Shown piece after piece: positions 1,662 to 29,886 of a DNA stretch of 64,000 nucleotides; position 1 is the stretch's first letter, and every line of letters starts with the position of its first letter. The DNA comes from a virus: positions 1 to 64,000 of IMG/VR virus record IMGVR_UViG_3300027754_005427. One strand, 5' to 3'. The notes beneath the pieces were generated by a model. That model saw only the letters and a list, made by a program, of their open reading frames with translations, searched no databases and had not been told where the DNA came from. The position numbers were made by a program, and so were the translations under genes.

Positions 1662-2927
1662 TTATTGTAAAATTTTAAGTCCTATAACAGGAGCTATTTC
1701 TGATAAATATTTAATATTATTTTTGCTTAAAAAAGGCTTATCAGATAAAGCTTCTTCTAATGATTCTTTGATATTTTTCAAGAAGTAATCAAAATGTTCT
1801 TGTAATGCAGACTTAAGTGCTTTTCCATGTTTAACAACTATTTCATAAACATTAATAAGATAATTAAAAATATTATCAGATGTAAACATATCTTCATAGA
1901 ATTCGTTAGCCCAAAAATAACTCTTTAAATAATAAACGGAATCAAGGTTTTGATTTTTTGATAGAATTTCCAATTGTTCTATTTTATCTTGATTATTTAT
2001 TGCTTTAAGAAACGCATCAATAATACTATCTTCTGCATATGAGTTGTTGTTTAATTCAAACAATTTATCTAATGGTAACGCATAATCTTTAGGTACTGCT
2101 TTTGCCCCGAACCATTTATCTGCATTTTTAGATCCTTCTATGTTTATTATTTTTAGTAATTCTTTTTTTAAAAAAGGAGCATTGGTTAAGTATTTATCAA
2201 CATAAAATTTTAATTGAGATACAGCTTTAATATTATTAGCCTTCCAGTCTTCTGAATCTTTTTTACCTTTAGAAGAATAAATTGTTCTGTGGTTTCCGCT
2301 TTTTCTATTAATAATTTCAATAAAGTCTAGCAGATCATTATCTAACAAAGGTTTTGCAGCTTGTTCCATAAAATCTACAAGTTTATTAATTAAAGATGTT
2401 GCATCAATAGTTTCAAAGAATTGTGCCCATGATCCTGTAGCTCTAGAAACAGAAACACTTTTTGTCAATTGATGAGTGGCAGATTGTCCTAGTTCAAAAT
2501 CAGGTAATTCTTGGCCAGTTGTAAAGCCAGTTTTTACTAGATCTACATCAAGTTTTTGTCCTATTTCTTTTTCAGCATTAGAAATATGTTTATCAATGAA
2601 TGTACCTTCTTCTTTATAAGGAATGGGTTTTAATCCATTTTTTTGAATTATTTGTATTAAGTTTTTAATAAACCCATAATCTGCTCCTGAACCAGCATGA
2701 AGGGGAGAATTTCTAATTATGCCTACATGAGTTGACTTAGCACCAATTGAAGAGTAGCCATTTTTTTCAGCTTTAAAAGCAGCTATAAAGTATTCAGAAT
2801 GTCCTTTATCCCATTGATAATAAAAATCAAAAGAAATGACATCTTTAGCAGGAATCAAAACAGCATCATCTTTTTGCCATTTTACGATTATATTTTCAGA
2901 TAGTATTAGCCATTGTTTAAAGTTCAT
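1662..2927 (-). CDS. Tagged protein of unknown function (putative packaged virion protein)
   Basis: A 421-residue protein that begins MNFKQWLILSEN, the N-terminal tag shared by at least 17 proteins here, with an L-S-E candidate prohead-protease site at residues 9-11. After it come a beta-rich region (KWQKDDAVLIPAKDV, FIAAFKAEKNGY), a Gly/His-rich stretch (STHVGIIRNSPLHAGSGAD) and a mainly helical C-terminal half. I recognise no domain. No Shine-Dalgarno is present; TGTAAATA at 2932-2939 sits 4 nt before the ATG, like the other tagged genes. It is the last gene of a minus-strand array of tagged genes that runs down from 12521. Confidence 0.75.
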   Translation of the reverse strand: MNFKQWLILSENIIVKWQKDDAVLIPAKDVISFDFYYQWDKGHSEYFIAAFKAEKNGYSSIGAKSTHVGIIRNSPLHAGSGADYGFIKNLIQIIQKNGLKPIPYKEEGTFIDKHISNAEKEIGQKLDVDLVKTGFTTGQELPDFELGQSATHQLTKSVSVSRATGSWAQFFETIDATSLINKLVDFMEQAAKPLLDNDLLDFIEIINRKSGNHRTIYSSKGKKDSEDWKANNIKAVSQLKFYVDKYLTNAPFLKKELLKIINIEGSKNADKWFGAKAVPKDYALPLDKLFELNNNSYAEDSIIDAFLKAINNQDKIEQLEILSKNQNLDSVYYLKSYFWANEFYEDMFTSDNIFNYLINVYEIVVKHGKALKSALQEHFDYFLKNIKESLEEALSDKPFLSKNNIKYLSEIAPVIGLKILQ

Positions 2928-2953: not shown

Positions 2954-3943
2954 TTATCTTTGTTTAAGCATCCAATCATCTGGAAGTCCATTTTCTTTAG
3001 CAATTTCAATATCTGAAGGATACCAAACATTGGTTGCATTTTTTGTGTTATTAATGAAGTCTTGGTATGCTGCTCTTCTAGCATTTAAAAAATTCTTAAA
3101 TTCAGGAGGATATTTTCCAAGTTCTTTGTATCTTGTTGCAAGTTCTTTTGTTTGTTTGTTGCTTTTTAATTCAGGTTGAAGCTCAATCCAATCATCTGGA
3201 AGTCCATTTTCTTTGGCAACATCTATGTCTGAAGGATACCAAGTATGTTTTGATTTAATGTTATTAATGAAGTCTTGATATGCCATTCTTTTTTTATTTA
3301 AAAAACTCTTAAATTCAGCAGGATATTTTCCAAGTTCTTTATATCTTATTGCAATTGCTTTTACTTTTTGATTGCTCATTAGTTCATTTTGTCTTTCCAT
3401 CCAATTATCTGGTAGTCCATTTTCTTTGGCAACATCTATGTCTGAAGGATACCAAGTATATCTTGATTTAATGTTATTAATTAAGTCTTGGTATGCGATT
3501 CTTTTTTTATTTAAAAAATTCTTAAATTCAGCAGGATATTCTCCAGTTCCAAGTTCTTTGTATCTTATTGCAAGTTCTATTACTTTTTGGTTACTTGCAA
3601 GTTCACGAGCAAGTTCATGATTAGAATTTTTAGAATCAAACAAGCCAGACATATTGTTTTTATCTAAGATATCTTCATCTGTTGGGAAATAATTAATATT
3701 AATAATTTTAGCAGTTTTTCTGCTTTGCAAGAAGTCTGCTAGCATAACTTCTTCTGAATCAATATTATAAGAAATTTCACCGCTTGTAGTATGAGTACCA
3801 CCAAGTATTGATGTTTTTTTAGAAGGATTTCTGTTGTGGGTTTTTATCCAATCACATAACTTTTGAGTTAATTGATTAGATTCTGCTTCTTTAAAAGGGT
3901 CATGTATACTTTCAGAGATTAATAGCCAGCTTTTAAAGTTCAT
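2954..3943 (-). CDS. Tagged protein with three helicase-associated-like repeats
   Basis: A 329-residue protein with the tag MNFKSWLLISES. From about residue 110 it holds three ~75-residue repeats of the form [AT]xRYKELGxYPxEFKxFLNxxRxAYQDxINN, then WYPSDIxxAKENGLPDxW. A more divergent unit lies near residues 25-85 (LCDWIKTHNRNPSKK, LADFLQSRK). The pattern aromatic - G - P - FL...KR - AY - W - GLP - W resembles the helicase-associated (HA) repeat, a small helical nucleic-acid-binding module; this is only a pattern match. The same unit occurs in the proteins at 9588-11255 and 11271-12521. AATAAATA (3948-3955) lies 4 nt before the ATG. Confidence 0.75.
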   Translation of the reverse strand: MNFKSWLLISESIHDPFKEAESNQLTQKLCDWIKTHNRNPSKKTSILGGTHTTSGEISYNIDSEEVMLADFLQSRKTAKIININYFPTDEDILDKNNMSGLFDSKNSNHELARELASNQKVIELAIRYKELGTGEYPAEFKNFLNKKRIAYQDLINNIKSRYTWYPSDIDVAKENGLPDNWMERQNELMSNQKVKAIAIRYKELGKYPAEFKSFLNKKRMAYQDFINNIKSKHTWYPSDIDVAKENGLPDDWIELQPELKSNKQTKELATRYKELGKYPPEFKNFLNARRAAYQDFINNTKNATNVWYPSDIEIAKENGLPDDWMLKQR

Positions 3944-3946
3944 AGT

Positions 3947-5659
3947 TTATTTATTTTGTTCTTTTTGTTTTTGTATTAAATAATCTTTAACTGTTTGTGT
4001 TTTTGCATTATTGATAGTAAATGGGAAATCTTTTGGTTGTAGTATAAAACTTTTTTCATCAAAAAAGTATTTTAAAACATCAAGTTCTCCAGAAAGACTT
4101 GCAGATTTTACATCGCCAGATGTGATATTTTTCTTTTTTTCATCAATCAAATATTTTAAACCATTAAGGTTTCCATGCATTGCTGCAATACTAACAGCGT
4201 TATAAGGTATTGAGATATTTTTTTCATCAATTAAGTATCTTACAATATCAATATTATTTTGTCTAAAAGCATCTTCAATATCACTGTGTAGTACATTAAT
4301 ATTTTTTTCTTCAATCAAGTATTTTAAAATATCAAGTTTGCCATATTTTACTGCATACATAATTGGATTAGAAGAATCTAATATAATGCCGTGTTTTACA
4401 AAATATTTTAATAGGTCAAGTCTATCTGCCTTTATTGCGTGACCAGCAGCATAATATGGGACGCTTTGTCCTTTTTCGATCAATTCTGTTACTAGAGAAA
4501 AGTCTTCAATTTGAAGAGCTTTGTGAATTTTTAATTCATCAGTAACATTATAAAATTCTTCTTGTTGTTTTGGTGTAAATAAATTAAATTCTTCTTTAGA
4601 AAGATCTTCATGTTGTCTATCTAATATCAATCTATTATGCAGATAAATATCTTTTAATTCTTTTTTAGCAATAACTTTTTTAAGCTGATAATTTTCAAGT
4701 TTCAAACCAGTTTTAACATATTGTTTTAATAATGAAGCAATATTGTTATCATGTATATAATCAAATTGAGGATCTGAAAGTCTATGTACTCTTCCTATGT
4801 AATTAGATTTTTCTATTGGTGATAGTGCTTTAAACCAATTTAAATTATAATTTGTTTTACCTAATTTTGCCTGTTCAGCTTCTTCTTCTGGTGATTTTGG
4901 TATATTTTTGAATACAGTTGTATCAATTCCTTTTTCTTTTAAATATTTAAAGTATAAATCTGGGTCTGATGTTATTCTTTTTGGTGTAGTTTGATAAGGA
5001 TCTTGCATAGTTTTTGCTGTGTCGTTTTTTCGATCTGTAAGTTCAATACCATGTTCTGTTACATCAACTACAGTAATTGCAAGGTCATCAGTTCTTGTGT
5101 TATCATAAACGAAGTAGAAAGTTGATACTTTAGTATCTCTGTAAGTTTGGAACATATTATGTGGGCCGTGTCTTGATATACAGAAAGATTCACCTTTGCC
5201 GAGTACGATACATTGATTTGCTGAGTTTGCCAGATAAACCTTTATCTTAAGGTCTGGTGAATGTTCGATTACTTCTTGGCCTTCAAGATCGCCTTGTATT
5301 GGTGTATTGATAACTTTGCCTTCATGGGTTAAAACATCAATTATTTCAGTCCAATGGATAAAAGATTTAAAATCGCCATCAACAGTAAGGTCATCTTTTA
5401 CTGTAATGATGTTCATTTTTTGGTTTTTTACAAGATTGGCATAATCTTCCAAGTAGTCTTTTAGAACCACAATTTGTGGCTCTTCTTGGTTGTAGTAGAA
5501 TGCAGCGATGGGAAGTAATTGACCTTGTAATTTTTCTGGTATATTTGTTGGAATGATAGATTTTATTTTTTTAAATAAATCATCGTTGCCGAGAAGTTCT
5601 TTGGCAATGTCGCTTGATTTCTTTGCTTCAGTTATTAATAGCCAGCTTTTAAAGTTCAT
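3947..5659 (-). CDS. Tagged ankyrin-repeat protein with C-LG-C head module
   Basis: A 570-residue protein. The tag is MNFKSWLLITEA. Residues ~20-340 form a head shared along its length with the proteins at 24685-27126 and 27130-29886; its core is C-I-V-L-G-K-G-x-x-F-C-I-S (about residues 150-165) followed by TFYFVYDNTR. Residues ~375-560 hold about six ankyrin-like repeats (DLLKYFVKHGI, KLDILKYLIEEKNI, NIDIVRYLIDEKNI, NLNGLKYLIDEK, ELDVLKYFFDEK). Ankyrin repeats bind other proteins, so a host-directed role is plausible if the protein is packaged. CATAAATA at 5665-5672 lies 5 nt before the ATG. Catalytic activity is unknown. Confidence 0.8.
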   Translation of the reverse strand: MNFKSWLLITEAKKSSDIAKELLGNDDLFKKIKSIIPTNIPEKLQGQLLPIAAFYYNQEEPQIVVLKDYLEDYANLVKNQKMNIITVKDDLTVDGDFKSFIHWTEIIDVLTHEGKVINTPIQGDLEGQEVIEHSPDLKIKVYLANSANQCIVLGKGESFCISRHGPHNMFQTYRDTKVSTFYFVYDNTRTDDLAITVVDVTEHGIELTDRKNDTAKTMQDPYQTTPKRITSDPDLYFKYLKEKGIDTTVFKNIPKSPEEEAEQAKLGKTNYNLNWFKALSPIEKSNYIGRVHRLSDPQFDYIHDNNIASLLKQYVKTGLKLENYQLKKVIAKKELKDIYLHNRLILDRQHEDLSKEEFNLFTPKQQEEFYNVTDELKIHKALQIEDFSLVTELIEKGQSVPYYAAGHAIKADRLDLLKYFVKHGIILDSSNPIMYAVKYGKLDILKYLIEEKNINVLHSDIEDAFRQNNIDIVRYLIDEKNISIPYNAVSIAAMHGNLNGLKYLIDEKKKNITSGDVKSASLSGELDVLKYFFDEKSFILQPKDFPFTINNAKTQTVKDYLIQKQKEQNK

Positions 5660-5709: not shown

Positions 5710-5857
5710 CTAATTACAAAGATCAATAAATTTTTTCAAATAATCATTAGCATCTTTAGAATCACAGTCATCTTCAACTAGTGCTTTTTTATTTTTATTT
5801 GTACAAATAAAAGAAACTATTTCTAAAGCTGTTGGATTATTTTTTAAAATTAAGCAT
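5710..5857 (-). pseudogene. Out-of-frame continuation of the 5850-7751 gene
   Basis: Directly after the stop of the 5850-7751 gene, another minus-strand frame is open for about 50 codons and ends with TAG at 5710-5712. It has no start codon. It reads GCLILKNNPTALEIVSFIC and continues through KKALVEDDCDSKDANDYLKKF to IDLCN. The composition fits the upstream protein, and it fills an otherwise empty 190-bp gap in a region where genes are 2-20 bp apart. I infer a frameshift (mutation, sequencing error or recoding) near 5850-5870, next to an A/T run. Confidence 0.5.
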
Positions 5858-7751
5858 CCTCATCTAAAACAGAAAGAAAATTAGTCACACAACTATTTTC
5901 TTCTTCAAATTTTCCATGTAATGCATTGATGTATTTTATTTTATTACTATCAATATGAATATTTTCAAATATTTCTTTTAAACCACCATTTTTACAAAGT
6001 TTGGCTAATGTATTTTTGTCTGAATAATGAATTAAGTTGCTAACACCACTCTCTCCATTGCCATCAATCCCACAAATTAGCATATGCAATAGCACATCTG
6101 GATTTTCAACAATGTCAAAGTTTTCGTTTTCTCCTTTTAACAACTCAAGTATATGATAATTTCCAAATACATTGCTCCAATTGTATTCATTCCATGTATC
6201 TGCAAAAACAAATTCTAATAATTCCAAGAAGTCTTTTTGACTTGGCGACTTTTGGATGAAGTAATAAATATTATCTGCGTCATATGGGGTTATAACTTTT
6301 ATAAATTTTACATATTCTTCTCTGATGCTGTTGTGGAATGACTCAAAAATTGTATTAGCTTCATTAGTAGATGTTTTTTCTATTGTTGAAAACTCAAATT
6401 TACTTAAAAACTCAAAAATTTGTTTTTCACAGTTTTCGTAACAATTTAAAATAATTTTTCTACATATTACTTCTAACGGAAATAGTACTTTTCCATTGCC
6501 ATCTTGAATCTTTGTAATTTTTACAAAAGTAGAAATGCTAATTCCTTTTGGCAATATTTCATTTGCTTGATCTATAAACCAACTATGATTTTTGATTTTA
6601 TCATAATAATTATTTGCTAGATTAAACACAAAGTTATCTTTATCACCATCCCAATATTCAATCATTGGATAAAAGACATCATTTTCCAGAGAAGTCTTTG
6701 TGTTTTCTTCAATATAATTTAAAGTTAAATTTATGATCTCGTTGTGATTTTCTAAATTCATGCTTAAAATATGTTTCAAGTTATATAAAGTTTCCATTGG
6801 ATTTTCTTTTAATTGTTCTTTTATAGATTCTCTTATATTATCAGGCTTAGATTTTAAAAATCTATTAAAAGGCTTTACTTCTTTCCCATCTGAATTATGA
6901 AAAGGAACTTCTTTTGGAATTGATTGTTTTAAAAAATCATATTCAAGAGGTAACAAAAAACTAACTTCATTATCTTTACTGTCTTTAAATTGTACATTTT
7001 TTCTTTCTATTCCTTTTTCATCAATAGTTGGCGGGGAATTTTTGAGAGAAAACTGGTATCTTGGTTTATTATTATATAAAAGAATATAAACTGGTACATA
7101 TTTGTATTCTTTATGATAATCACCAGTTGCTGTAGCTGTACACCAATCTGAGCTTCTACCTAAAGAGCAAAACACTCTGTGTCTTGAATTTATTTCATCT
7201 TCAGTATTATTTACTACAGGTGGAACATAATACAAGGAAAATCCATCATGCTCTGCAACTAGTTTTTTGTACTTAGAATCTGCATCAATCGTAATTCCTT
7301 TTTTTGAAAATAATTTATTTTTTGTATTAGAGATTTTGTTTTCTTCTTGTGATTTTTCAATTATATTATTTTTAGCTAATTTTCCTAATCCAAACCATCC
7401 TATTGAACCAATTGTTCTTTTAGTTATTTTGCCATTTGAAATCATTTCTATAGTAACATCTATAGCTCTTTTTAAATCTTCTAATCTAAAGTCTGGTTTT
7501 GTTTTAAAGAATCCTAAAGAAAACCTAAACCAATTTTTATCTTCCAAAACTTGAGTTCTCCCAGAAATTTTTGGTTCAAGACTTTTTTCGTGAATTGCAT
7601 TAGAAATTAGATTTTTAATCGTATCGTTTATCAATTCATACTGGATTAATTCTTTTTTTGGATCTATATATTTTACAAAATCATCCAACATATGATCGAA
7701 CATGTCATATATTAGCGATTCTTTTAGCAACCATTCTTTAAAATTTTGCAT
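5850..7751 (-). CDS. Tagged protein with WCTA-type module
   Basis: About 633 residues from the ATG at 7751, chosen because it gives the tag MQNFKEWLLKES; an in-frame ATG at 7823 would put 24 unrelated residues in front. Residues ~190-245 contain VFCSLGRSSDWCTATATGDY followed by VYILLYNNKPRYQFSL, the same C-x-L-G-x...W-C-T-A layout seen in several tagged paralogues. The rest is helical and lacks a recognisable domain. ATATATA precedes the ATG by 5-6 nt and there is no Shine-Dalgarno. The reading frame probably continued past the present stop (see 5710-5857). Confidence 0.7.
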   Translation of the reverse strand: MQNFKEWLLKESLIYDMFDHMLDDFVKYIDPKKELIQYELINDTIKNLISNAIHEKSLEPKISGRTQVLEDKNWFRFSLGFFKTKPDFRLEDLKRAIDVTIEMISNGKITKRTIGSIGWFGLGKLAKNNIIEKSQEENKISNTKNKLFSKKGITIDADSKYKKLVAEHDGFSLYYVPPVVNNTEDEINSRHRVFCSLGRSSDWCTATATGDYHKEYKYVPVYILLYNNKPRYQFSLKNSPPTIDEKGIERKNVQFKDSKDNEVSFLLPLEYDFLKQSIPKEVPFHNSDGKEVKPFNRFLKSKPDNIRESIKEQLKENPMETLYNLKHILSMNLENHNEIINLTLNYIEENTKTSLENDVFYPMIEYWDGDKDNFVFNLANNYYDKIKNHSWFIDQANEILPKGISISTFVKITKIQDGNGKVLFPLEVICRKIILNCYENCEKQIFEFLSKFEFSTIEKTSTNEANTIFESFHNSIREEYVKFIKVITPYDADNIYYFIQKSPSQKDFLELLEFVFADTWNEYNWSNVFGNYHILELLKGENENFDIVENPDVLLHMLICGIDGNGESGVSNLIHYSDKNTLAKLCKNGGLKEIFENIHIDSNKIKYINALHGKFEEENSCVTNFLSVLDEDA

Positions 7752-7814: not shown

Positions 7815-7837
7815 GTCAGCCACTGTTTAAAGTTCAT
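7805..7837 (-). pseudogene. Vestigial 10-codon tag ORF
   Basis: ATG at 7837 opens MNFKQWLTNY and stops with TAA at 7805-7807. It has the same upstream context as the functional tagged genes (GATAAATA at 7843-7850, 5 nt before the ATG) and overlaps the last codons of the 7827-9584 gene in another frame. It looks like the tag-and-promoter start of a lost or replaced gene; the actual next gene begins at 7751 with its own tag. Confidence 0.6.
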
Positions 7838-9584
7838 GTAGGTATTTATCTATTAGCTCTTGAATTTCTGGTGTTTTCTTTGTGTGATAGTGATTTAAAA
7901 CTTGTGCCATTTTTTGTTTATCTGGGAATTTATTTATGTATTCATTCGGAAAATCAAGCAGACGATTAATAGAAGTTAATTCGAGCTTGCTTATATTATC
8001 TGTTCCTAACAGCTTTGCTATATTTTCTTTGTTAACTGCATAATAAAGCAAAATATAAACACTCTCATTATCAAAATTTGTTTTATAATCTATGATTATT
8101 TCTGCCAGTTTGTCTTTGTCGATTGCAAAATGGAGCAAATTAGAAATATCAAACTCATAAATATTGCTTATATTATATGCTCCTAATAGTTTCGCTATAC
8201 TTGCTTTACTTTTTGCAAAATGAAGCAAATTATAAACATTGTTACTAGAAAGTTTTGTTTTGTATTTTATGATTATTTCTGCCGTTTTGTCTTTATCTTT
8301 AGAAGATTTAAGAAATTCAGCAACAGTACTATCAAAAAGCTTATTTAAGCTATACGCTCCTAATAGTTTTTCTATGCTTTCTTTATCAATTGCATGATAA
8401 AGTAAGTAATAAATTTTATTATCATTAACAACTTTATTACTTCCATATTCTGTATTTTTCTCAATGATTAATTTTGCTATTTCGTCTTTGTTAGTTACTT
8501 TATCAAGTAAAGTAGAAACATCTTTAGTAGAAATCGTTGGTTTGTTATTTAAAATAATTTTAGCCATATCGTCTTTGTCATGTGCAAATTCAAGTAAATA
8601 AAGAACAATAGCATCAGAAAGTTGTGGGTTCTTTTTAATTATTATTTTTGACATTTCGTATGTGTTTTTTGTATTTTTAAGTAACTGGTGAACATTGTCA
8701 TCGGAAAGATCTTGTTTATTTTTAATAACTAAATTTTCTATTTTTTCTTTGTCTTTTGCTTTATCAAATAGATATTCAATGTCTTCATCAGTAAGATATT
8801 TTATTTTTTCTGGTTTTGAATGATAGTTTACAAAATCTAAATCTGGTTTTAATTTGAGTAGTTCTTCTTTATTACTTAAATCATCTAATGAAAAATTATT
8901 TTTTGGTAAATACCCACCGCCCTTGATGGTTATTATTTTGTCATTTTTAAGTAATTCTATTATTGGTTGATGAAATTTTGGAGATGGTTTTGAATTTTTC
9001 ATACCTTTCATTTCGCCTAATATTCCTTTATTTTCGATAAAAGTAAGATTTGCTATATTTTGCGGATCTCTTAAAGATAGGATGTTATCTCCTTCTATAC
9101 CAGCAGCATTACCACAATGCCCACCACTTTTTGCTTCCATTTCGCACTTATAACGATCTAAGGAAACCCATCGCCAGCCTTTCCATTGAGATCCTAAATG
9201 AGATAAATCTATAAAAGTTTCAGCTTCTCTAGCTGGGATTGCTTGGTTTGCTTCTAATTCTTCGTGCCATTCATCTGATTCTTGTGTTAGTTGTTCAAGT
9301 GTGAAGTTTGGATCGGTTAAATTTAGTTTTTGGTAATTAGCCATTAAATAATCTTTAGTGGAATAAATGTGGGTTTGAAAGTTTGATTCTTTTGAATTAT
9401 AAAAGTTCCAAGTATAAAAGTTAATGAAAGTGGATTTGATGTTTTCTTTTATGTTGTGAGCGAAAGCATTTACAAGTTTTGTTACATTTGATTTAATTTG
9501 TTTTATTATTGGATCATTGGATTGCTTTAATAATTGAGCAATGTTTGTGTTTTCAGATAATAATAGCCAGCTTTTAAAGTTCAT
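7827..9584 (-). CDS. Tagged PcfJ-like-head protein with ~35-residue helical repeats
   Basis: A 585-residue protein. Tag MNFKSWLLLSEN. Residues ~130-245 contain KCEMEAKSGGHCGNAAG, NILSLRDPQN, NLTFIENKGILGEMKGMKNSKP: a C...GHCG...LRDP...TFIENKG...KG..N pattern that resembles PcfJ-like phage and plasmid proteins of unknown activity. Residues ~270-560 contain about ten ~35-residue alpha-helical repeats with the signature K[DE]xxAKIIIxxKxxLSxxxVxxLLxxAxxK, alternating with SIAKLLGAYNIS variants. Such solenoids usually bind proteins. Its last codons overlap the vestigial tag ORF. TATAAATA is present slightly further upstream of the ATG than in the others. Confidence 0.75.
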   Translation of the reverse strand: MNFKSWLLLSENTNIAQLLKQSNDPIIKQIKSNVTKLVNAFAHNIKENIKSTFINFYTWNFYNSKESNFQTHIYSTKDYLMANYQKLNLTDPNFTLEQLTQESDEWHEELEANQAIPAREAETFIDLSHLGSQWKGWRWVSLDRYKCEMEAKSGGHCGNAAGIEGDNILSLRDPQNIANLTFIENKGILGEMKGMKNSKPSPKFHQPIIELLKNDKIITIKGGGYLPKNNFSLDDLSNKEELLKLKPDLDFVNYHSKPEKIKYLTDEDIEYLFDKAKDKEKIENLVIKNKQDLSDDNVHQLLKNTKNTYEMSKIIIKKNPQLSDAIVLYLLEFAHDKDDMAKIILNNKPTISTKDVSTLLDKVTNKDEIAKLIIEKNTEYGSNKVVNDNKIYYLLYHAIDKESIEKLLGAYSLNKLFDSTVAEFLKSSKDKDKTAEIIIKYKTKLSSNNVYNLLHFAKSKASIAKLLGAYNISNIYEFDISNLLHFAIDKDKLAEIIIDYKTNFDNESVYILLYYAVNKENIAKLLGTDNISKLELTSINRLLDFPNEYINKFPDKQKMAQVLNHYHTKKTPEIQELIDKYLHEL

Positions 9585-9587
9585 AGT

Positions 9588-11255
9588 TTATATATTTATA
9601 AAGTTTTTATTAATTAAAAATTGTTCAAATGTTTTTGTAGGTTCAACTAATTCTGTTGGGTTTGATTCTGCTAAATATTTAGCATACATTTTATCGTGAT
9701 ATTTTTTTCTATCATCTGGTACATCTGGATTTGCAAACAAATCGTCAAATTCATCATCGTGTCTTATAAAATTCAAAATTATATCTTCAAAGTTATTTTC
9801 ATTTTTCCAATATGGAATTACAAGTAATGGAAAACTTTTATTTAAACAATAATTATATTTTTTACGATCATTTTTTTGAATATATAAAAATTGTTTAAGA
9901 GCATCTTTTGCTATTTCTTGTTTTGTTTTACCTTCTCTTGATCCAAAGTATACTGGATAATAATGTTGTTCTCCATGATACTCCACGAAATATTCTTGAT
10001 CATCGTACTCGAATGAATAATCAAATCTAAAACATTGTCCAGTTGTGATATTGCATTCTTTATCTATATATTCAGAATCTACATCATCAAAATATTTATT
10101 TAATATTTTTCCTACTAATTTAGCAGGTTTTGAAATGCCTTTTTTATCAACAGGTAAATACCAACCTTTTGGCAATCCTGCTTCTTCACCAACTTTTTTA
10201 TCTGTTTTGTACCATTTACTACTAGTGTAATTTGTTTTATTTTTAAGGTCTTGATATGCTTTTCTTTTCTGATATAGAAAGTCACTGAGTGGATTGTTTG
10301 GTAGCGGATCTTCTTTGTCAGGATTTTTTTTATCATTAAAATGAATACCTAAATTTTTTAAGTTCTGATCATTTTTTATTTGGTTATTCAGAGAAGCTTT
10401 TGCAATTGCACAATCAGGACAATTACTACCGTTTGTTCTATTGTAAAGCGGTGCTTTCCATGTGTGTGTTTTATTTTCAAGGCATTTCCAACTTATCATT
10501 TTGTTACTTTTTGGCATTACATCACTAGGAGTAAGCTGCTCTCCGTCATCTTTTTTATTTTTAAATCCAAATTCATCTTTCCCATAATCCCATTCAGATA
10601 CCAATCTTTTATATCTAGCTTTATCAGGATTTGATTCATTTTCAGATAAGCCCTGTAAACTATTGTCTTTATTAATTCTTTTGTTTGTAATTGAACAATC
10701 AGGACAATTTTTACCATTTTTTCTATTGTCAATTCTTGCTTCCCATATGTGTCCTTCTTTACATTTCCAATTTATCATTTTGCTAGACGAGGTGGTTACA
10801 TCAGCAGGAGTAAGCTGTTCTCCGTCATCTTTTTTATTTTTAAATCCAAATTCATCTTTCTCATAATCCCATTCAGATACCAATCTTTTGTATCTAGCTT
10901 TTAAAACAGGATTTGATTCAGTTTCAGATAAAGCCTGTAAACTATTATCATCGCCAATTCTTTTGTTTGCACAAGTAGGACAATTTCTACCATTTGTTCT
11001 ATTGTTAAGCGGTGCTGGCCATGTGTGTTCTTTTTCACATTTCCAATTTATAATTTTCCTACTTCCTGGCGTTACATCACTAGGAGTTAATGTATTATTT
11101 TTTTTATCCCATTCAGATACCAGTCTTTTATATCTAGCTTTTAAATCAGATTCTGGTAAATTTTCAGATAAAGCCTGTAAACTATTTGTTTCAAGATATT
11201 TAGGTGAAAAGGACTTTGCCATTTCAGAGATTACTAGCCAGCTTTTAAAGTTCAT
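9588..11255 (-). CDS. Tagged zinc-ribbon / PD-(D/E)xK nuclease-like protein
   Basis: A 555-residue protein. Tag MNFKSWLVISEM. Residues ~35-290 hold three repeats of RYKRLVSEWD...LTPxDV...INWKCxxxHxWxAxLxNRxNGxNCPxC, which match the treble-clef zinc-ribbon family DUF4379. One helicase-associated-like unit follows (KRKAYQDLKN, GLPKGWYLP). The C-terminal ~170 residues look like a Vsr-type PD-(D/E)xK nuclease: FRFDYSFEYDDQEYFVEYHG then EQHYYPVYFGS, with D and E-Y-H-G-E-Q-H as candidate metal/catalytic residues, and LLVIPYW. A packaged nuclease could attack host DNA on entry (inference). TATAAATA (11260-11267) lies exactly 4 nt before the ATG. Confidence 0.75.
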   Translation of the reverse strand: MNFKSWLVISEMAKSFSPKYLETNSLQALSENLPESDLKARYKRLVSEWDKKNNTLTPSDVTPGSRKIINWKCEKEHTWPAPLNNRTNGRNCPTCANKRIGDDNSLQALSETESNPVLKARYKRLVSEWDYEKDEFGFKNKKDDGEQLTPADVTTSSSKMINWKCKEGHIWEARIDNRKNGKNCPDCSITNKRINKDNSLQGLSENESNPDKARYKRLVSEWDYGKDEFGFKNKKDDGEQLTPSDVMPKSNKMISWKCLENKTHTWKAPLYNRTNGSNCPDCAIAKASLNNQIKNDQNLKNLGIHFNDKKNPDKEDPLPNNPLSDFLYQKRKAYQDLKNKTNYTSSKWYKTDKKVGEEAGLPKGWYLPVDKKGISKPAKLVGKILNKYFDDVDSEYIDKECNITTGQCFRFDYSFEYDDQEYFVEYHGEQHYYPVYFGSREGKTKQEIAKDALKQFLYIQKNDRKKYNYCLNKSFPLLVIPYWKNENNFEDIILNFIRHDDEFDDLFANPDVPDDRKKYHDKMYAKYLAESNPTELVEPTKTFEQFLINKNFINI

Positions 11256-11259
11256 AGTT

Positions 11260-11267
11260 TATTTATA
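11260..11267 (-). promoter_or_regulatory. TATAAATA late-promoter-like octamer
   Basis: Exact TATAAATA on the minus strand, 4 nt upstream of the ATG at 11255. It matches the T4 late promoter consensus; no Shine-Dalgarno lies between it and the start codon. Confidence 0.55.
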
Positions 11268-11270
11268 GTT

Positions 11271-12521
11271 TTAAAGAATTTTATTAATTAAAAATTGTTC
11301 AAATGTTTTTGTAGGGTAAACTAATTCTGTTGGGTTTAATTCTGCTGGTTTTGATTTTGCTAAAAAATTTTCATATATTTTATCATGTTTAACTTTATAA
11401 TCTGATGGTACATTTGGAATTGCAAAAGTTTCGTTAAATTCATTTGTTTCCAAGAATTGTTTAATTCTACTTTTAATAATATCTGGGGTTTCATATAACC
11501 AATATGGAATTACTAAAAATGGAAGATTTTCTTTTACACAATGATCGTATTTTATTTTATCATTTCCTTGGATATATTCAAATTTATCAAGAGCATGTTT
11601 TGCTATTTCTTGGTCTGTCTTTTCTTCTGTTGAGCCAAAGTATACTGGATAATAATGTTGTCCACCATGAAATTCTAAATATTTTTTTCCATTATGTGTA
11701 ATCGAAAAATCAAATGGCAAACATATCTTGTTTTTACAAGCGTCATCTCTATGTTCTGTGTCATTTTCAATTTCAAGTTCTTTTAATATATTTGCTACTA
11801 ATTTTTCTCCAAGGGATTTTTCACCTGCTGGTTTTATTTCACGCCAATTACCTGGAAGTTCGTAAGGAAAATCTTCTTTATTCCAATTTTTAGATAATGC
11901 AACCATATCTGCCCAAGTTATATCATCTGATTCTTCATGTGGGTTTGGATTTCTTTTCTTATTAATTAGCCATAAGGCAAGACTTTTATCTTTTTTATCA
12001 GAGGTATGTTTCGAAGGACTTGCTCCATTTTTCCCATAATAGATTGCAAGTTCTTCTAATCTATCATTACTTTTTTGTTCATTTTTACTTTTTATTATTT
12101 CTATTTGAGAATCCATCCAATTGTTTGGCAGTCCATTTTTTTCAGCTACTTCTATGTCTGAAGGATACCAAGCAGAGTCTGAATTTTTTGTACCATCAGC
12201 CTTCTTGTAGCCTTTGTATGCTTTTCTTTTGTTATGTAAAAAATTCTTAAATTCAATAGGTAATTTAGCAAATCCTTTAGCTTTAATGTATTCGATTGCA
12301 AGTGCTTTTACTTTTTGGTTACTTGCAAGTTCAAGCTTATAAATTTTAGTATTAGTCAAATTTGGATTAGATAAATTTGCATTTAATGGAGGAATAGTTG
12401 TAGTCAACTTTGGATTAGATACACTTGTATTCAATGGAGGAATAGTAGAAGTCAAATTAGGATTAGATAGATTTATATCTTTTTCTTCTTCTTCAGATAA
12501 TAGCCAGCTTTTAAAGTTCAT
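11271..12521 (-). CDS. Tagged PD-(D/E)xK nuclease-like protein with HA-like repeats
   Basis: About 416 residues from the ATG at 12521 (tag MNFKSWLLSEEEE); an upstream in-frame ATG at 12557 would add 12 residues and misplace the tag. Residues ~15-55 carry three copies of SNPxLTxTIPPLN, a Pro/Thr-rich spacer. Two helicase-associated-like units follow (KNFLHNKRKAYKGYKK...WYPSDIEVAEKNGLPNNW; YGKNGASPSKH...ALWLINKKR). The C-terminal nuclease-like domain has LPFDFSITHNGKKYLEFHGG then QHYYPVYFGS, closely related to 9588-11255 but with G-Q-H in place of E-Q-H, which may affect catalysis. GATAAATA (12527-12534) is 5 nt before the ATG. Confidence 0.72.
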   Translation of the reverse strand: MNFKSWLLSEEEEKDINLSNPNLTSTIPPLNTSVSNPKLTTTIPPLNANLSNPNLTNTKIYKLELASNQKVKALAIEYIKAKGFAKLPIEFKNFLHNKRKAYKGYKKADGTKNSDSAWYPSDIEVAEKNGLPNNWMDSQIEIIKSKNEQKSNDRLEELAIYYGKNGASPSKHTSDKKDKSLALWLINKKRNPNPHEESDDITWADMVALSKNWNKEDFPYELPGNWREIKPAGEKSLGEKLVANILKELEIENDTEHRDDACKNKICLPFDFSITHNGKKYLEFHGGQHYYPVYFGSTEEKTDQEIAKHALDKFEYIQGNDKIKYDHCVKENLPFLVIPYWLYETPDIIKSRIKQFLETNEFNETFAIPNVPSDYKVKHDKIYENFLAKSKPAELNPTELVYPTKTFEQFLINKIL

Positions 12522-12526
12522 AGAGG

Positions 12527-12564
12527 TATTTATCTTTATAAATTTAAATTTAAACACATAAATA
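12527..12564. promoter_or_regulatory. Divergent late-promoter-like pair
   Basis: Two octamers face away from each other: GATAAATA on the minus strand (12527-12534), 5 nt before the ATG at 12521, and CATAAATA on the plus strand (12557-12564), 4 nt before the ATG at 12569. They appear to drive the tagged genes on either side. Confidence 0.45.
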
Positions 12565-12568
12565 TATT

Positions 12569-13231
12569 ATGTTAAAATTTAGAAATTGGCTCATGAGATT
12601 TGAATCTACAGAGATTGATTTAAACAATCCTCAACCATTACCAGTTATGTCTCTGAAATCATTATCTGATATTAAAGGAACAAAAGAGGAACGATTTTTA
12701 AAAGTAGCGAAAAGTGTTTCAGAAAAGTATAATCTTGCAAAACCAACAAGTTATTTAGACGGTGGATTTTATGCTAAAGTATATAATACAGAAGATCGTA
12801 ATTTAGTAATAAGGGTGGCGAGGAATGAAGAGTCTGAATGCGAAAAGAAGATAAATGAAAAAGAAATACAAGAAACAGGAGGTGTGGTTAAGGTATACCA
12901 TCAATATGAAGAAGATTACTATGACGAAGATTACGGTGAAGAAAATTACATTATAAGCTACAAAGAAAAAGTTGATACTAACTGGCTAGGGTATTTAAAA
13001 AAACAATATAATGAAATTTCAGAAGAATATAAAGTTTTAATAGATGTTATACAATGGAAATTATCATCTCAATCAGAATTTTACGCAAAACAAGGTCTTG
13101 AAATATTAAAAAAATACAAAGAAACTGATAATCTTGTGAATGCAGTAGAAGCTGGTATAAGTAGTGATGATTTGCATAAAGATAATATAGGCGTAAACAA
13201 GAGTGGCAATATAGTTGTTATTGATTGTTAA
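12569..13231 (+). CDS. Tagged protein-kinase-like protein
   Basis: A 220-residue protein. Tag MLKFRNWLMRFES. The body looks like a minimal protein-kinase/phosphotransferase fold: a Gly-rich loop (YLDGGFYAKVYNTED, ~residues 66-80), a beta-3-like strand (NLVIRVARNE), then near the C terminus DDLHKDNIGVNKSG and VVIDC, which correspond to the HxDxxxxN catalytic loop and the DFG strand. The protein stops right after the metal-binding Asp, as in some short phage kinase-like proteins. The usual beta-3 Lys appears to be Arg, so activity is uncertain. The 3' end overlaps the convergent gene by 14 bp. If packaged, it could phosphorylate host targets early in infection. Confidence 0.65.
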   Translation: MLKFRNWLMRFESTEIDLNNPQPLPVMSLKSLSDIKGTKEERFLKVAKSVSEKYNLAKPTSYLDGGFYAKVYNTEDRNLVIRVARNEESECEKKINEKEIQETGGVVKVYHQYEEDYYDEDYGEENYIISYKEKVDTNWLGYLKKQYNEISEEYKVLIDVIQWKLSSQSEFYAKQGLEILKKYKETDNLVNAVEAGISSDDLHKDNIGVNKSGNIVVIDC

Positions 13232-24684: not shown

Positions 24685-27126
24685 ATGAACTTTAATTTTC
24701 AAGAATGGCTGTTGATATTAGAAGAATTAAAACCAAAAGCTTTGGCTTTTAAAATACTTGGTAATACAGTAGATAAAACTGGCAAGCCTGTTCTTAGTAC
24801 TGATCCTAACATTATAAAAACAACAAATGAATTCAATAAGATATTTACCGCTTCTGGTATTCCTGAAGCACAACAAAAAAACATTTATCCAACGGCAGCT
24901 TATGTGTACAAAACAAACCCATCAGTTAGCGAAGGAGAATTCTCTCAAGATTTAAAAGATTATTATAAATTTGTAATAGCCAACCAACTTCCTGTTTTAT
25001 CATTTAATGATGATGGAAATGTAACTGGTAATAATATTATAGGAAAATCTAAAAGTGAAGGAAATCCATATTTGCATTATGCTGATTGGGCAACTATTAT
25101 ACATACTAAAAATAGCGAAAGTGAAGATGAAGTAAAAAAGAAATTCCACCAAACTTTATACAAATCTACAGGTGATGTAAGCGATCAAGAACTAGTTGCA
25201 AAATCACCAGATGAAAAGATAAAGGTTTATAAATCTAATGCAGTTGACAAGTGTATTATTCTTGGTAGAGGTCAAAAGTTTTGCATATCTCAACCTGGCA
25301 ATTCAATGTTTCAATCTTACAGGAATACCAAAGATTCAACTTTCTACTTTGTTTATGATAATACAAGAAACGATGATCTTAAAGTAGTTGTAGTTGATGC
25401 CACAATAAGTAAAATTGAAATTACTGATAGCTCAAATAGAACAGATAAATTCATGCAAGATCCATATGTAACCGATAAAGTAACAGAAATAACCTCAAAT
25501 TCAAAATTATACTTAAAATATTTAAAAGAAAAAGGCGTTGATATAACTGTATTTAAAAACGAGCAAAGAACAGCAAAAGAAAATGAAGAACATGAAAAAT
25601 TAGGTAAGGAAAATAAAGACTTAGCATGGTTTAAATCTTTAACATATGAAGAAAAGAAAAACTATGTTGGCAGAGGACACAGACTTTCAAGTGAACAATT
25701 TAATTGGCTAGTTTCAATTAACTCTGAACCACTTTTAAAACAACATTTATCACTTGGTATAGTTTTGTATGGTAAGCAGTTGAACCTTGTTCTTAATGAT
25801 CCTTATTTTAAAGATTTAAAATTAAATTATCTTAACGCAAGAATGAATGGTCTTCCAGAAAGACAGCTAGCAATAAAAGAATATTTAGCCATGCCACCAA
25901 AATACAAACAAGAGTTGGCAGAAAAATATGGAGATAAACTTAAAGATTATATTAATGTTAATAAGCTTCATGTTTTAGAATATATTAATCTTAAAGAAGA
26001 AGAAAAAACAGAAATTGAAAGATTGTTTAATTATGGTGACAATCTTGTCAAAAATATTCAGAGAAAATTAGGCATTGAATATTATATTGATCTTCCAGAA
26101 GATAAAAAAATAGAAGTGCGAAAAATATATGGAGCACAACTTCTAGAAGAAATTGAAAATTTTAACCTTGAATACTATCTTGATCTTTCAGAGGATAAAA
26201 AAACAGAATTGAAAAAATTATTTTTATACACTGATGCTAATAATGGCTCTAGACTACTTCAAAACAAAATTCAAAGATTTGACATTCAAACTTATCTTGA
26301 TCTACCAGAAGATAAAAAAATAGAAACAAAAAAGTTATTTGGAAAATATATTAAAAACCAGATATCTCCATACTCTTATGGTGGATTGTTTGCAAAGTAT
26401 ATACATAACCCAACTTTAGAATTTACTGATGAAGAAAAAGAATTGATTAATTGTGGAACACAAACTTTCTTAATCGATATTTTAGACCAACCAAACAAAA
26501 ACAATGTTAAATTTATGACTAAAATGCTTGAAACATGTCCAAACGCAGTAGATTTTCAGTATTTAAATGACAGACACGCATTAACTACCATATTTCAAGA
26601 ACTCAAGGGTGAAAAAGTTAAATTTATAAATTTACTGCATCTTTTAAGTAATTATTCAAATCAAATGCGATTGGATAATATAGATATTATATTTAATTAC
26701 ATGATTAACATTCTTGGTAATGTTTCTAAATACATATTTATGTTTAGAAAATTCTTTGAAAAGTTTGCTTCAGATTTAAGCAGTGCCAGCAGTCACGATA
26801 GATACGAAGGTTCGCAACATCATTCTAAAGTAGAGAAGAATTTCTTTAATGAAAATAAAACTCTTAAGTTGTTTAGAAAAATATTTGATGGAAATCCATA
26901 TCATATGGAAAAATATAGTACAAATGATTTAATTTCAACTATGAAATTTATTGTAGATACAATTGGAAAAGAAAAGTTTCCAAGAACTACAAGAGATTTA
27001 ATAAAAGAAAAAGCTGGAGAAGAAGGTTATAAATCTATATTCCCAGAAGAAGAAACAGAAACATCTCCAGCAGATTACGATAAAGCATACACAAGAGATT
27101 CTACTAGAGAAGCAAGGATTATATAA
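24685..27126 (+). CDS. Large tagged paralogue A1 (C-LG-C head, helical repeats)
   Basis: An 813-residue protein. Tag MNFNFQEWLLILEE. Residues ~20-370 form the head shared with 3947-5659 and 27130-29886; its core is CIILGRGQKFCISQPGNSMF then TFYFVYDNTRNDD. Residues ~430-560 contain four repeats of about 33 residues with [YE]YxDLPEDKKxExKKLFG. The C-terminal domain (LHLLSNYSNQM, KYIFMFRKFFEKFAS, FIVDTIGKEKFPRTTRDLIK) ends in a charged tail and is also conserved in the next gene. Catalytic function is unknown. TATATAAT-like sequence lies directly before the ATG without Shine-Dalgarno. Confidence 0.75.
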   Translation: MNFNFQEWLLILEELKPKALAFKILGNTVDKTGKPVLSTDPNIIKTTNEFNKIFTASGIPEAQQKNIYPTAAYVYKTNPSVSEGEFSQDLKDYYKFVIANQLPVLSFNDDGNVTGNNIIGKSKSEGNPYLHYADWATIIHTKNSESEDEVKKKFHQTLYKSTGDVSDQELVAKSPDEKIKVYKSNAVDKCIILGRGQKFCISQPGNSMFQSYRNTKDSTFYFVYDNTRNDDLKVVVVDATISKIEITDSSNRTDKFMQDPYVTDKVTEITSNSKLYLKYLKEKGVDITVFKNEQRTAKENEEHEKLGKENKDLAWFKSLTYEEKKNYVGRGHRLSSEQFNWLVSINSEPLLKQHLSLGIVLYGKQLNLVLNDPYFKDLKLNYLNARMNGLPERQLAIKEYLAMPPKYKQELAEKYGDKLKDYINVNKLHVLEYINLKEEEKTEIERLFNYGDNLVKNIQRKLGIEYYIDLPEDKKIEVRKIYGAQLLEEIENFNLEYYLDLSEDKKTELKKLFLYTDANNGSRLLQNKIQRFDIQTYLDLPEDKKIETKKLFGKYIKNQISPYSYGGLFAKYIHNPTLEFTDEEKELINCGTQTFLIDILDQPNKNNVKFMTKMLETCPNAVDFQYLNDRHALTTIFQELKGEKVKFINLLHLLSNYSNQMRLDNIDIIFNYMINILGNVSKYIFMFRKFFEKFASDLSSASSHDRYEGSQHHSKVEKNFFNENKTLKLFRKIFDGNPYHMEKYSTNDLISTMKFIVDTIGKEKFPRTTRDLIKEKAGEEGYKSIFPEEETETSPADYDKAYTRDSTREARII

Positions 27127-27129
27127 TCT

Positions 27130-29886
27130 ATGAACTTTAATTTTCAAGAATGGCTGTTAATATTAGAAGAATTAAAACCAAAGGCTTTGGCTTTTAAAAT
27201 ACTTGGCAATACAGTAGATAATGCTGGCAAGCCTGTACTTAGTACTGATCCTAATATTATAAAAACAACAAATGAATTCAATAAGATATTTTCTGCTTCA
27301 ATTCCTGAAGCACAACAAAAAAACATTTATCCAACAGCAGCTTATGTGTATAAAACAAATCCATCAGTTGGCGAAGCAGAATTCTCTCAAGATTTAAAAG
27401 ATTATTATAAATTTGTAATAGCCAACCAACTTCCTGTTTTATCATTTAATGATGATGGAAATGTAACTGGGAACTATATTATAGGAAAGCCAAAAGATAC
27501 AGGAAATCCATATTCACATTATATTCATTGGGCATCTGCTGTACATTCTAAAAATAGCGAAAATGAAGATGAAGAAAAAAAGAAATTTCACCAAAGCTTA
27601 CAAAAATCTACAGGTGATGTAAGTGATCAAGAATTAGTTGCAAAATCACCAGATGAAAAGATAAAGGTTTATAAAGCTAACGCAGTAGACAAGTGTATTA
27701 TTCTTGGTAGAGGTCAAAAGTTTTGCATATCTCAACCTGGTAATTCACAATTTCATGGTTACAGGAATACCAAAGATTCAACTTTCTACTTTGTTTATGA
27801 TAATACAAGAAATGATGATCTTAAAGTAGTTGTAGTTGATGCCACAAGAAGAGGTATTGAAATTACTGATGGAAAAAACGACACAGCAAAAACTATGCAA
27901 GATCCATATGAAACTACACCAAAAATAATAACATCAAATTCAGATTTATACTTAAAATATTTAAAAGAAAAAGGTGTTGATACAACTGTCTTTAAAAATG
28001 AACGAAAAACACCAAAGGAAGAAGCAGAAAACGAAAAATTAGGTAAGGGTAATCTTGAATTAGCATGGTTTAGATCTTTAACATATGAAGAAAGAAAGAA
28101 CTATATTGGAAGAGGACATACTCTTTCAGATGAACAATTTAATTTTCTATTTACAACTAGATCTGAGCCACTTTTAAAAATATATGTATCAACTGGTATA
28201 ATTTTGTATAGTGAGCAGTTGAACCTTGTTCTTAACAATCCTTATTTTAAAGATTTAAAATTAAATTATCTTAATGCAAGAATGCATAATTTTCCAAATA
28301 AACATCTGTTTGCAGAAGAATATTTAGCCATGCCACCAAAACAAAAACAAGAATTAGTAGAAAAATATGGAGATAAACTTAAAGATTATATAGAAATTAA
28401 AAATATTAAAATTAAATATTATGTTAATTTACCAGAAGATAAAAAAACTGAAATTAAAAACTTATTTGGAAATGATTTTTTTAATTCAATGTTAAATAAT
28501 TCTAGGTATTCTCTTAAGATTGAAGATTATCTTAATTTACCAGAAGATAAAAAGACCGAAATTAAAAATTTATCTAAAGATAATGTTTATCATTTATTTG
28601 GATATCAGTCTACTAAAGTTGAAGATTATCTTAGTTTACCAGAAGATAAAAGAACCGAACTCGAAAACTTACTTGGAGATAATTATAAAAGATTAATAAT
28701 ATTTAATTCAATTAACATTGAAGATTATCTTAATTTCCCAGAAAATAAAAAAGCTGAAATTAAAAACTTACTTGGAAATGATTCTAAAGATTTAATAAAA
28801 TATCAGTCTATTAAAATTGAAGATTATCTTAATTTCCCAGAAGATAAAAAAACTGAAATTAAAAACTTTCTTGGGTATAATTATAGAGATTTAATAATGT
28901 ATAGGTCTATTAAAATTGAAGATTATCTTAATTTCCCAGAAAATAAAAAAGCAGAAATTAAAAAATTATTTGGAGATAGTTTCAAAAGTTATCTAATTTC
29001 AGATCATAGTGGTAGTTATATTAAAGCCGAAGATTATCTTAATTTACCAGAAGATAAAAAAACTGAAATTAAAAACTTTCTTGGAGATAGTTTCAAAGAT
29101 TATGTATCAAATTTTTATGATTTATTTAGAAAATATGAAAAAAATCCAAGTTTGGAATTTAATGATGAAATAAAAAATTTAATTACTTGTAAAAATGCTG
29201 ATTTTGTATCTGAAATTTTAAGACAACCAAACAAAAACAATGTTAAGTTTTTGACTGATTTTTTAAGATCAAGTTGTAAAGGTTTAATAGATGATATATT
29301 AAGTAGCGGTGATAGTATTAGGGATACATTTGATGAATTTTACGATAAAAAATTTAAAAGTATAGACAAAGTTAAAGTTATAAATTTATTGCATCTTTTA
29401 AGTACTTATTCAAATCAAATGCCAATGAGAAATATATCAAATTTAATTAGCAATATTAGAGCTTATCTTGGTAGTAGTTCTAAATACATTGTTATGTTCA
29501 GAAAATTCTTCCAGAATTTTGCTTCAAAATTACAAGATGCCAAAGAAGTTAATCGTGATCAAGAAGACATGCATCATTCTGATGTAAGTAAAAATCATGA
29601 AAACACTAGTATAAAATTATTTGCAGATATCTTAAGTTCTTTTGGAAAAATATTAGATAAAGATGCAATTTCAACTATTAAATTCATTGTAGATACAATT
29701 GGAAACGAAAAGATCCCAAGAACTACAAGGGATTTAATAAAAGAAAAAGCTGGAGAAGAAGGTTATAAATCTATATTCCCAGAACAACAGCAACAACAAC
29801 AAGCATCTCCAGAAGATTACGATAAAGCATACAGAGGAGATTCTACTAGAGAAGGAAGAGATTATAAGATGAATCGCTTAAGATAA
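27130..29886 (+). CDS. Large tagged paralogue A2 (C-LG-C head, nine helical repeats)
   Basis: A 918-residue protein, tandem duplicate of the preceding gene; the sequence around both ATGs (GATTATATAATCTATGAAC) is identical. Same tag and head (CIILGRGQKFCISQPGNSQF). Residues ~425-660 hold about nine repeats of the form [IV]EDYLNLPEDKKTEIKNLxGxx, roughly twice as many as in A1, so the repeat block has expanded. The C terminus repeats the conserved domain (HLLSTYSNQM, FIVDTIGNEKIPRTTRDLIK) and then QQQQQQ. A helical solenoid for protein binding is inferred. Confidence 0.75.
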   Translation: MNFNFQEWLLILEELKPKALAFKILGNTVDNAGKPVLSTDPNIIKTTNEFNKIFSASIPEAQQKNIYPTAAYVYKTNPSVGEAEFSQDLKDYYKFVIANQLPVLSFNDDGNVTGNYIIGKPKDTGNPYSHYIHWASAVHSKNSENEDEEKKKFHQSLQKSTGDVSDQELVAKSPDEKIKVYKANAVDKCIILGRGQKFCISQPGNSQFHGYRNTKDSTFYFVYDNTRNDDLKVVVVDATRRGIEITDGKNDTAKTMQDPYETTPKIITSNSDLYLKYLKEKGVDTTVFKNERKTPKEEAENEKLGKGNLELAWFRSLTYEERKNYIGRGHTLSDEQFNFLFTTRSEPLLKIYVSTGIILYSEQLNLVLNNPYFKDLKLNYLNARMHNFPNKHLFAEEYLAMPPKQKQELVEKYGDKLKDYIEIKNIKIKYYVNLPEDKKTEIKNLFGNDFFNSMLNNSRYSLKIEDYLNLPEDKKTEIKNLSKDNVYHLFGYQSTKVEDYLSLPEDKRTELENLLGDNYKRLIIFNSINIEDYLNFPENKKAEIKNLLGNDSKDLIKYQSIKIEDYLNFPEDKKTEIKNFLGYNYRDLIMYRSIKIEDYLNFPENKKAEIKKLFGDSFKSYLISDHSGSYIKAEDYLNLPEDKKTEIKNFLGDSFKDYVSNFYDLFRKYEKNPSLEFNDEIKNLITCKNADFVSEILRQPNKNNVKFLTDFLRSSCKGLIDDILSSGDSIRDTFDEFYDKKFKSIDKVKVINLLHLLSTYSNQMPMRNISNLISNIRAYLGSSSKYIVMFRKFFQNFASKLQDAKEVNRDQEDMHHSDVSKNHENTSIKLFADILSSFGKILDKDAISTIKFIVDTIGNEKIPRTTRDLIKEKAGEEGYKSIFPEQQQQQQASPEDYDKAYRGDSTREGRDYKMNRLR

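Follow-up and report, generated by a model that had tools for sequence, protein, structure and literature searches.

Nuclease-like proteins with a T4 capsid-targeting-like tag as putative injectable cargo of a large phage

The stretch of DNA considered here (the window, 64,000 nucleotides) corresponds to positions 1 to 64,000 of the IMG/VR virus record IMGVR_UViG_3300027754_005427 (G000; 86,926 bases); the G+C content is 27.5%, and all coordinates are those of the window. On the minus strand, a run of seven genes extends from 12.5 to 1.7 kb, all of which open with the same kind of short peptide, hereafter the tag, which resembles the capsid-targeting sequence of phage T4. In order of transcription the tags start at 12521 (NUC2), 11255 (NUC1), 9584, 7751, 5659, 3943, and 2927, and the tag DNA ATGAACTTTAAAAGCTGGCT is identical in five of them. 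The present analysis concerns NUC1 and NUC2, two tagged proteins with a Vsr-like nuclease domain (Table 1).

Modular architecture and N-terminal tag

An earlier note on this DNA, made from the sequence alone, had described NUC1 as a combination of the tag, DUF4379-like treble clefs, an HA-like unit, and the motif FDYSF...EYHGEQHYY, and NUC2 as a shorter relative devoid of zinc ribbons and carrying EFHGGQHYY. Both open reading frames lie at the quoted coordinates and begin with the tag, and the NUC2 motif was found as quoted; a GTG at 12557 is a possible alternative start, but it would place the tag internally. As for NUC1, the tag, the nuclease motif, and the treble clefs were confirmed, DUF4379 giving three matches above the Pfam cut-off (whole-protein E 2.1e-42), each corresponding to a W-K-C..H-x-W..C-P-x-C unit. 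The HA-like label proved weak, with 13.1 bits for HA (PF03457) against a Pfam cut-off of 28.4, although the unit itself, of about 71 amino acids (aa), is real: it is common to NUC1, NUC2, and a tagged 329-aa neighbour, most of which it accounts for. Both nucleases have a modular, presumably DNA-binding region N-terminal of the nuclease domain, made of three DUF4379 repeats in NUC1 and of subthreshold HA-like units in both.

For capsid targeting in T4, the ten N-terminal residues are enough; residues 4 and 7 direct it, residues 8 and 10 govern processing, and the gp21 protease cuts after L/I-x-E (PMC9026906). IpII and IpIII start with MKTYQEFIAE and IpI with MKTFKEF. In the window tags, F3 and W6 are aromatic residues three apart, as are Y4 and F7 of T4, so that the F-x-x-W spacing matches the IpII/IpIII leader, with M-N-F-K-x-W-L shifted by one residue with respect to M-K-T-Y-Q-E-F-I; the (L/I)xE motif ends at residues 9 to 13. 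The short N-terminal leader, the aromatic pair, and (L/I)xE are thus shared with IpI, IpII, IpIII, and the injected ADP-ribosylase Alt, and, as in the T4 internal proteins, a common leader is followed by diverse, nonhomologous, and hypervariable bodies.

A start of the form M-x(1-3)-F-x-x-[WFY]-[LIVM] occurs in 18 of the 94 predicted genes of the record, compared to 0.88 expected, and internally once in 21,089 aa. In a set of 56 tagged proteins, drawn from the window and from further viral contigs, which includes nucleases, NUDIX hydrolases, a GNAT acetyltransferase, a polyA-polymerase-type nucleotidyltransferase, and an ankyrin protein, [LI]xE is found at residues 6 to 16 in 47 members, compared to 9.8% of internal 11-mers, and a Glu occupies position 9, 10, or 11 in 50 of them, compared to about 20% expected; since the scan pattern preset L7 and a hydrophobic residue 8, the Glu is the informative part of these figures. 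Furthermore, genes for a T4-type gp21 protease and gp23 capsid protein are present in 6 of 17 tag-bearing records, including four of the five above 250 kb, and in the gp21/gp23 records small genes starting with MK[TS]F-x-E-[WFY] adjoin the portal-protease-scaffold-capsid module.

These comparisons make it very probable that the tag represents a T4-type capsid-targeting sequence, and the earlier suggestion that it marks packaged, injectable proteins finds support in the leader spacing, the (L/I)xE motif, and the occurrence in gp21/gp23 phages. We consider it very unlikely that the tag is another signal, such as a peptide by which host-takeover proteins, synthesised once infection has begun, dock to a membrane or a complex; a protease gene is missing from the window's own contig, as would suit a docking peptide, but the T4 leader spacing and cut motif match, and the tag occurs in association with gp21/gp23 phages and with genes on either side of the head module.

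The C-terminal ends of NUC1 (9591-9641) and NUC2 (11274-11330), PTKTFEQFLINK, which share 96% DNA identity, also look like a T4 capsid-targeting sequence, preceded in NUC1 by LVE. The NUC1 C terminus may therefore have a capsid-targeting-like function; in T4, the C-terminal propeptide of Alt is also removed by gp21 (PMC9026906).

Nuclease fold, active site, and relatives

The nuclease domains of NUC1 and NUC2 are 51% identical, and their motifs, FDYSF...EYHGEQHYY and FDFSI...EFHGGQHYY, respectively, represent the core of a large family, with matches to phrog_559 (E 1.1e-22) and to phrog_9084, annotated as "homing endonuclease" (E 2.4e-11). The named sequence relatives are the "group I intron VSR" homing endonuclease of AR9 and similar phage genes. 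Sequence and profile searches of PDB found no nuclease relative, and neither PADLOC nor NCBIfam gave anything useful.

The AlphaFold2 models of both domains, obtained with 45-row alignments of relatives as input, keep the PD-(D/E)xK core (alpha-beta-beta-beta-alpha-beta) with a core pLDDT mostly above 90, in agreement with the Vsr-like fold assigned in the earlier note. With Foldseek, NUC2 matched first I-Bth0305I (3R3P; TM-score by target 0.66 to 0.70, probability 1.00) and next Escherichia coli Vsr (1CW0/1VSR; TM-score by target 0.60), and the top matches of NUC1 include Vsr 1VSR (probability 0.96); the E-values are modest (0.004 to 0.08), whereas the probabilities and target-normalised TM-scores are good. 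NUC1 and NUC2 have the fold in common with the E. coli Vsr mismatch endonuclease but differ from it in domain context, and their identity as Vsr repair enzymes was rejected, the Vsr family being unmatched in Pfam and NCBIfam. Sequence and models support assigning the domain to the phage EDxHD homing endonucleases and not to the Vsr repair enzymes. I-Bth0305I and its phage counterparts (e.g., g147 of Bacillus phage AR9) present the same catalytic fold and motif set, as well as an N-terminal modular DNA-binding region; unlike them, NUC1 and NUC2 carry the capsid-targeting-like tag and DUF4379/HA-like modules and sit in an array of tagged cargo, and NUC1 is devoid of the motif-1 Glu.

Over 96 relatives, D271 (NUC2 numbering) is conserved in all, D321 in 95, and the motif-1 Glu in 89, while the conservation of residues 110 to 118 in the table was imposed by the search pattern, which required the segment E-[YF]-[NDH]-G-x-Q-H. 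The full conserved set, from motif-1 E239 to D321, is present in NUC2, and a complete catalytic set is found in both tagged nucleases of the sister phage G001. In NUC1, the motif-1 Glu is replaced (E378A), with SKPAK where the family has SKGE-K. By analogy with Vsr and with the family name EDxHD, this Glu would be catalytic. Thus, NUC2 should be catalytically competent, whereas NUC1, missing the Glu, probably has a weaker activity, nicks DNA, or only binds it. The earlier hint of one altered active site thus fits NUC1; for NUC2 it was rejected, since the sites at which its motif differs, the N/D/H and x positions of E-[YF]-[NDH]-G-x-Q-H, are variable among family members.

We regard it as reasonably probable that NUC1 and NUC2 are homing-type endonucleases that became fused, in a large T4-related phage, to its capsid-targeting sequence and were thereby made injectable cargo. 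It is quite unlikely, in our opinion, that they are instead packaged DNA-binding proteins acting on incoming or packaged DNA (in protection, compaction, or silencing) with a nuclease fold that binds and does not cut. Such a role would be in line with E378A in NUC1, with the tagged 329-aa protein of HA-like units, which has no nuclease, and with the Vsr-like FASTKD4, reported to bind without cutting (PMC11879112), but it does not account for the complete catalytic set of NUC2 and of both G001 proteins.

Through the tag DNA pattern and domain alignments, about 127 distinct nuclease relatives were retrieved in viral contigs, while scans for close relatives with NUC1- or NUC2-only peptide patterns, which were too specific, gave no matches. 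Besides the window pair, the only tagged members are two G001 genes. Untagged relatives also occur inside tagged phages, namely, in G001 (834 aa), G002 (456 aa), and G005 (465 aa). The G001 protein (L249:2033-4534) consists of about ten HA-like repeats followed by the same nuclease domain, and the G005 gene adjoins what we take to be thymidylate synthase and dihydrofolate-reductase-like genes, surroundings typical of a free-standing homing endonuclease. The matches in bacterial genomes were all untagged, and no tagged cellular nuclease was found among them; a loose-pattern match in L346 (MTFRNFV) was put down to chance. A tree of 63 nuclease domains unites the window pair, the G001 pair, and the untagged L249/L250 proteins in a single supported clade (96/89), within which L249/L250 are sister to NUC1 plus NUC2 (98/88). 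The tag would therefore have been gained or lost more than once in this clade, or exchanged.

Slot turnover and tagged neighbours

G000 and G001 are metagenome assemblies, and the comparison of the nuclease slot rests on these two. The surroundings of the slot are 96 to 99% identical between them, with 97.3% up to 9594 and 95.9% from 13226, and the 3.6 kb in between has been fully replaced: NUC1, NUC2, and a kinase-like gene in G000 correspond to two other zinc-ribbon nucleases in G001, whose slot is therefore not an empty allele. G000 also has an additional cassette, the tagged 633-aa gene. Moreover, a zinc-ribbon nuclease of G001 matches the first ~130 residues of NUC1 with 86% DNA identity, while the nuclease end of NUC1 groups with NUC2, so that NUC1 looks chimeric. 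An orphan tag sits exactly at the end of the block syntenic with G001; the tags therefore look like recombination seams, and the orphan may indicate that further tagged genes are acquired by insertion at such sequences.

The mobility of the slot raises the question of whether NUC1 and NUC2 are ordinary free-standing homing endonucleases spreading in the lineage, with a tag acquired by recombination and of no role for the nucleases. Their nearest relatives are homing endonucleases, a hypervariable slot is expected of mobile genes, and the orphan tag indicates that tag DNA recombines. However, all four slot nucleases of the two phages keep an intact in-frame tag and cut motif while their bodies diverge strongly, other family members in tagged phages have no tag, and the neighbours in the operon-like array are tagged non-nucleases. 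On balance, we find this explanation unlikely.

Two further long tagged proteins, of 813 and 918 aa, are encoded in tandem at 24685-27126 and 27130-29886 (+), with near-identical starts and a relationship to the tagged 570-aa ankyrin gene. In the tagged genes of the window, A/T-rich stretches of the TATAAATAAACT type lie immediately 5' of the ATG, with no clear Shine-Dalgarno site upstream; they resemble the core of T4 late promoters, yet they are very near the start codon. In tagged proteins of other large phages (L058, L069, L107, and related loci), the tag is followed by a common TATVYHRT/TATIFHRT start; these proteins are candidates for an enzyme family such as ADP-ribosyltransferases. The tail-fibre region of the record (64 to 87 kb; L007 and L008) encodes many RCC1-like and collagen-like (Gly-x-Thr) repeat proteins.

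Table 1. Features of the nuclease locus and of the neighbouring tagged genes
Feature	Positions	Strand	Remarks
NUC1, 555-aa tagged zinc-ribbon nuclease-like protein	9588..11255	-	ORF; DUF4379 x3; phrog_559 and homing endonuclease families
NUC1 tag MNFKSWLVISE, capsid-targeting-like	11223..11255	-	(L/I)xE motif ISE at residue 11
NUC1 DUF4379 treble clef 1	10962..11123	-	E 4.2e-19
NUC1 DUF4379 treble clef 2	10692..10826	-	E 2.2e-13
NUC1 DUF4379 treble clef 3	10407..10547	-	E 4.3e-15
NUC1 HA-like unit (approximate limits)	10158..10328	-	Aligns with units of NUC2 and the 329-aa protein; repeat family D17
NUC1 Vsr-like (EDxHD-type) nuclease domain	9726..10142	-	D412, E425, H431, D463, K466 kept; AlphaFold2 pLDDT 84
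NUC1 A378 (codon GCT), altered motif 1	10122..10124	-	Glu in 89/96 relatives
NUC1 C terminus PTKTFEQFLINKNFINI, T4 capsid-targeting-like	9591..9641	-	Compare T4 MKTYQEFIAE
NUC2, 416-aa tagged nuclease without zinc ribbons	11271..12521	-	ATG at 12521
NUC2 tag MNFKSWLLSEE	12489..12521	-	LSE motif at residue 10
NUC2 linker, 48-nt (16-aa) tandem repeat	12347..12490	-	
NUC2 HA-like units, two (approximate limits)	11826..12269	-	Repeat alignment
NUC2 nuclease domain	11406..11825	-	E239, D271, E283, H289, D321, K324 all kept; AlphaFold2 pLDDT 87
Variable slot	9595..13225	.	Flanking identity; filled in G001 by two other tagged zinc-ribbon nucleases (471 and 392 aa)
Tagged (MLKFRNWL) 220-aa protein	12569-13231	+	Weak kinase match; opposite strand inside slot
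Tagged 585-aa neighbour	7827..9584	-	G001 counterpart 97% identical
Orphan tag MNFKQWLTNY*	7818..7837	-	Exact end of block syntenic with G001
Tagged 633-aa neighbour	5850..7751	-	Missing from G001 cluster
Tagged 570-aa ankyrin-repeat neighbour	3947..5659	-	
Tagged 329-aa protein of repeated HA-like units	2954..3943	-	Without nuclease
Tagged 421-aa neighbour	1662..2927	-	

A possible role as injected endonucleases

Several points weigh against reading NUC1 and NUC2 as homing-type endonucleases carried as injectable cargo. The fusion of tag and nuclease is known from two metagenome contigs only, and neither gp21 nor gp23 was found in G000 (87 kb) or G001 (101 kb), both of which are fragments, so that the tag is linked to the protease only via other tagged phages. 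In addition, L7 and the hydrophobic residue 8 of the tag were fixed by the scan pattern itself, part of the conservation of E-[YF]-[NDH]-G-x-Q-H likewise comes from the search pattern, the HA score is below threshold, and NUC1 has lost the motif-1 Glu.

The individual parts have precedents. IpI to IpIII of T4 inhibit host restriction enzymes; unlike NUC1 and NUC2, none of them is reported as a DNA endonuclease in the same source (PMC12373910). An engineered fusion of T4 IPIII with staphylococcal nuclease is capsid targeted at up to 200 copies and digests phage DNA upon Ca2+ addition (PMC3012670, PMC9026906); as proposed for NUC1 and NUC2, a nuclease is brought into the head by a capsid-targeting sequence, but that fusion is man-made and unspecific, whereas the window proteins are natural and probably sequence specific. 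The intron endonuclease gp210 of PhiPA3 cripples co-infecting PhiKZ and offers a functional precedent for a phage that turns a homing-type nuclease against a competitor; gp210 belongs to the HNH enzymes and is produced inside the cell, and no packaging signal is reported in the outline and abstract of the source (PMC11620839). When the literature was searched for phage endonucleases that are packaged in nature, only the engineered T4 fusion and papers on gene editing came up, and the incomplete coverage of this search makes it weak evidence of novelty. Within this partial coverage, the combination of these known parts was not found described, and we consider it real and informative.

In the mechanism that we propose, F3 and W6 of the tag would dock the protein on the prohead core and a gp21-type protease would cut after (L/I)xE, leaving the protein in the head together with the DNA, along with which it would be ejected. 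Once inside a new cell, it may be guided by its zinc ribbons and HA-like units to a specific sequence, most likely one carried by a rival or resident phage or by the chromosome of the host; there, the nuclease domain would cut or nick ahead of any phage gene expression. Since a packaged unspecific nuclease destroys the DNA of its own phage, and activation of staphylococcal nuclease inside T4 heads deprives these of infectivity, the enzyme would have to be selective or held inactive while in the head. Long specific targets, like that of I-Bth0305I, which is nearly 60 bp (PMC3943268), would solve this problem of self-protection. The nuclease slot would turn over by cassette exchange, with the tag sequences as seams. 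More generally, we put forward, tentatively, the possibility that large T4-related phages load sequence-specific endonucleases and inject them at infection against a rival phage, a prophage, or a host locus, swapping the cassettes at the tags.

Homing endonucleases are usually viewed as selfish genes expressed after infection. If the proposed reading is true, a natural capsid-targeting fusion would turn a homing endonuclease into a weapon or takeover tool that is injected and acts before transcription, and it would raise the question of how such a phage shields the DNA packaged with the enzyme. The tag would also offer a way to list, from sequence only, the arsenals of injected proteins in large T4-related phages.

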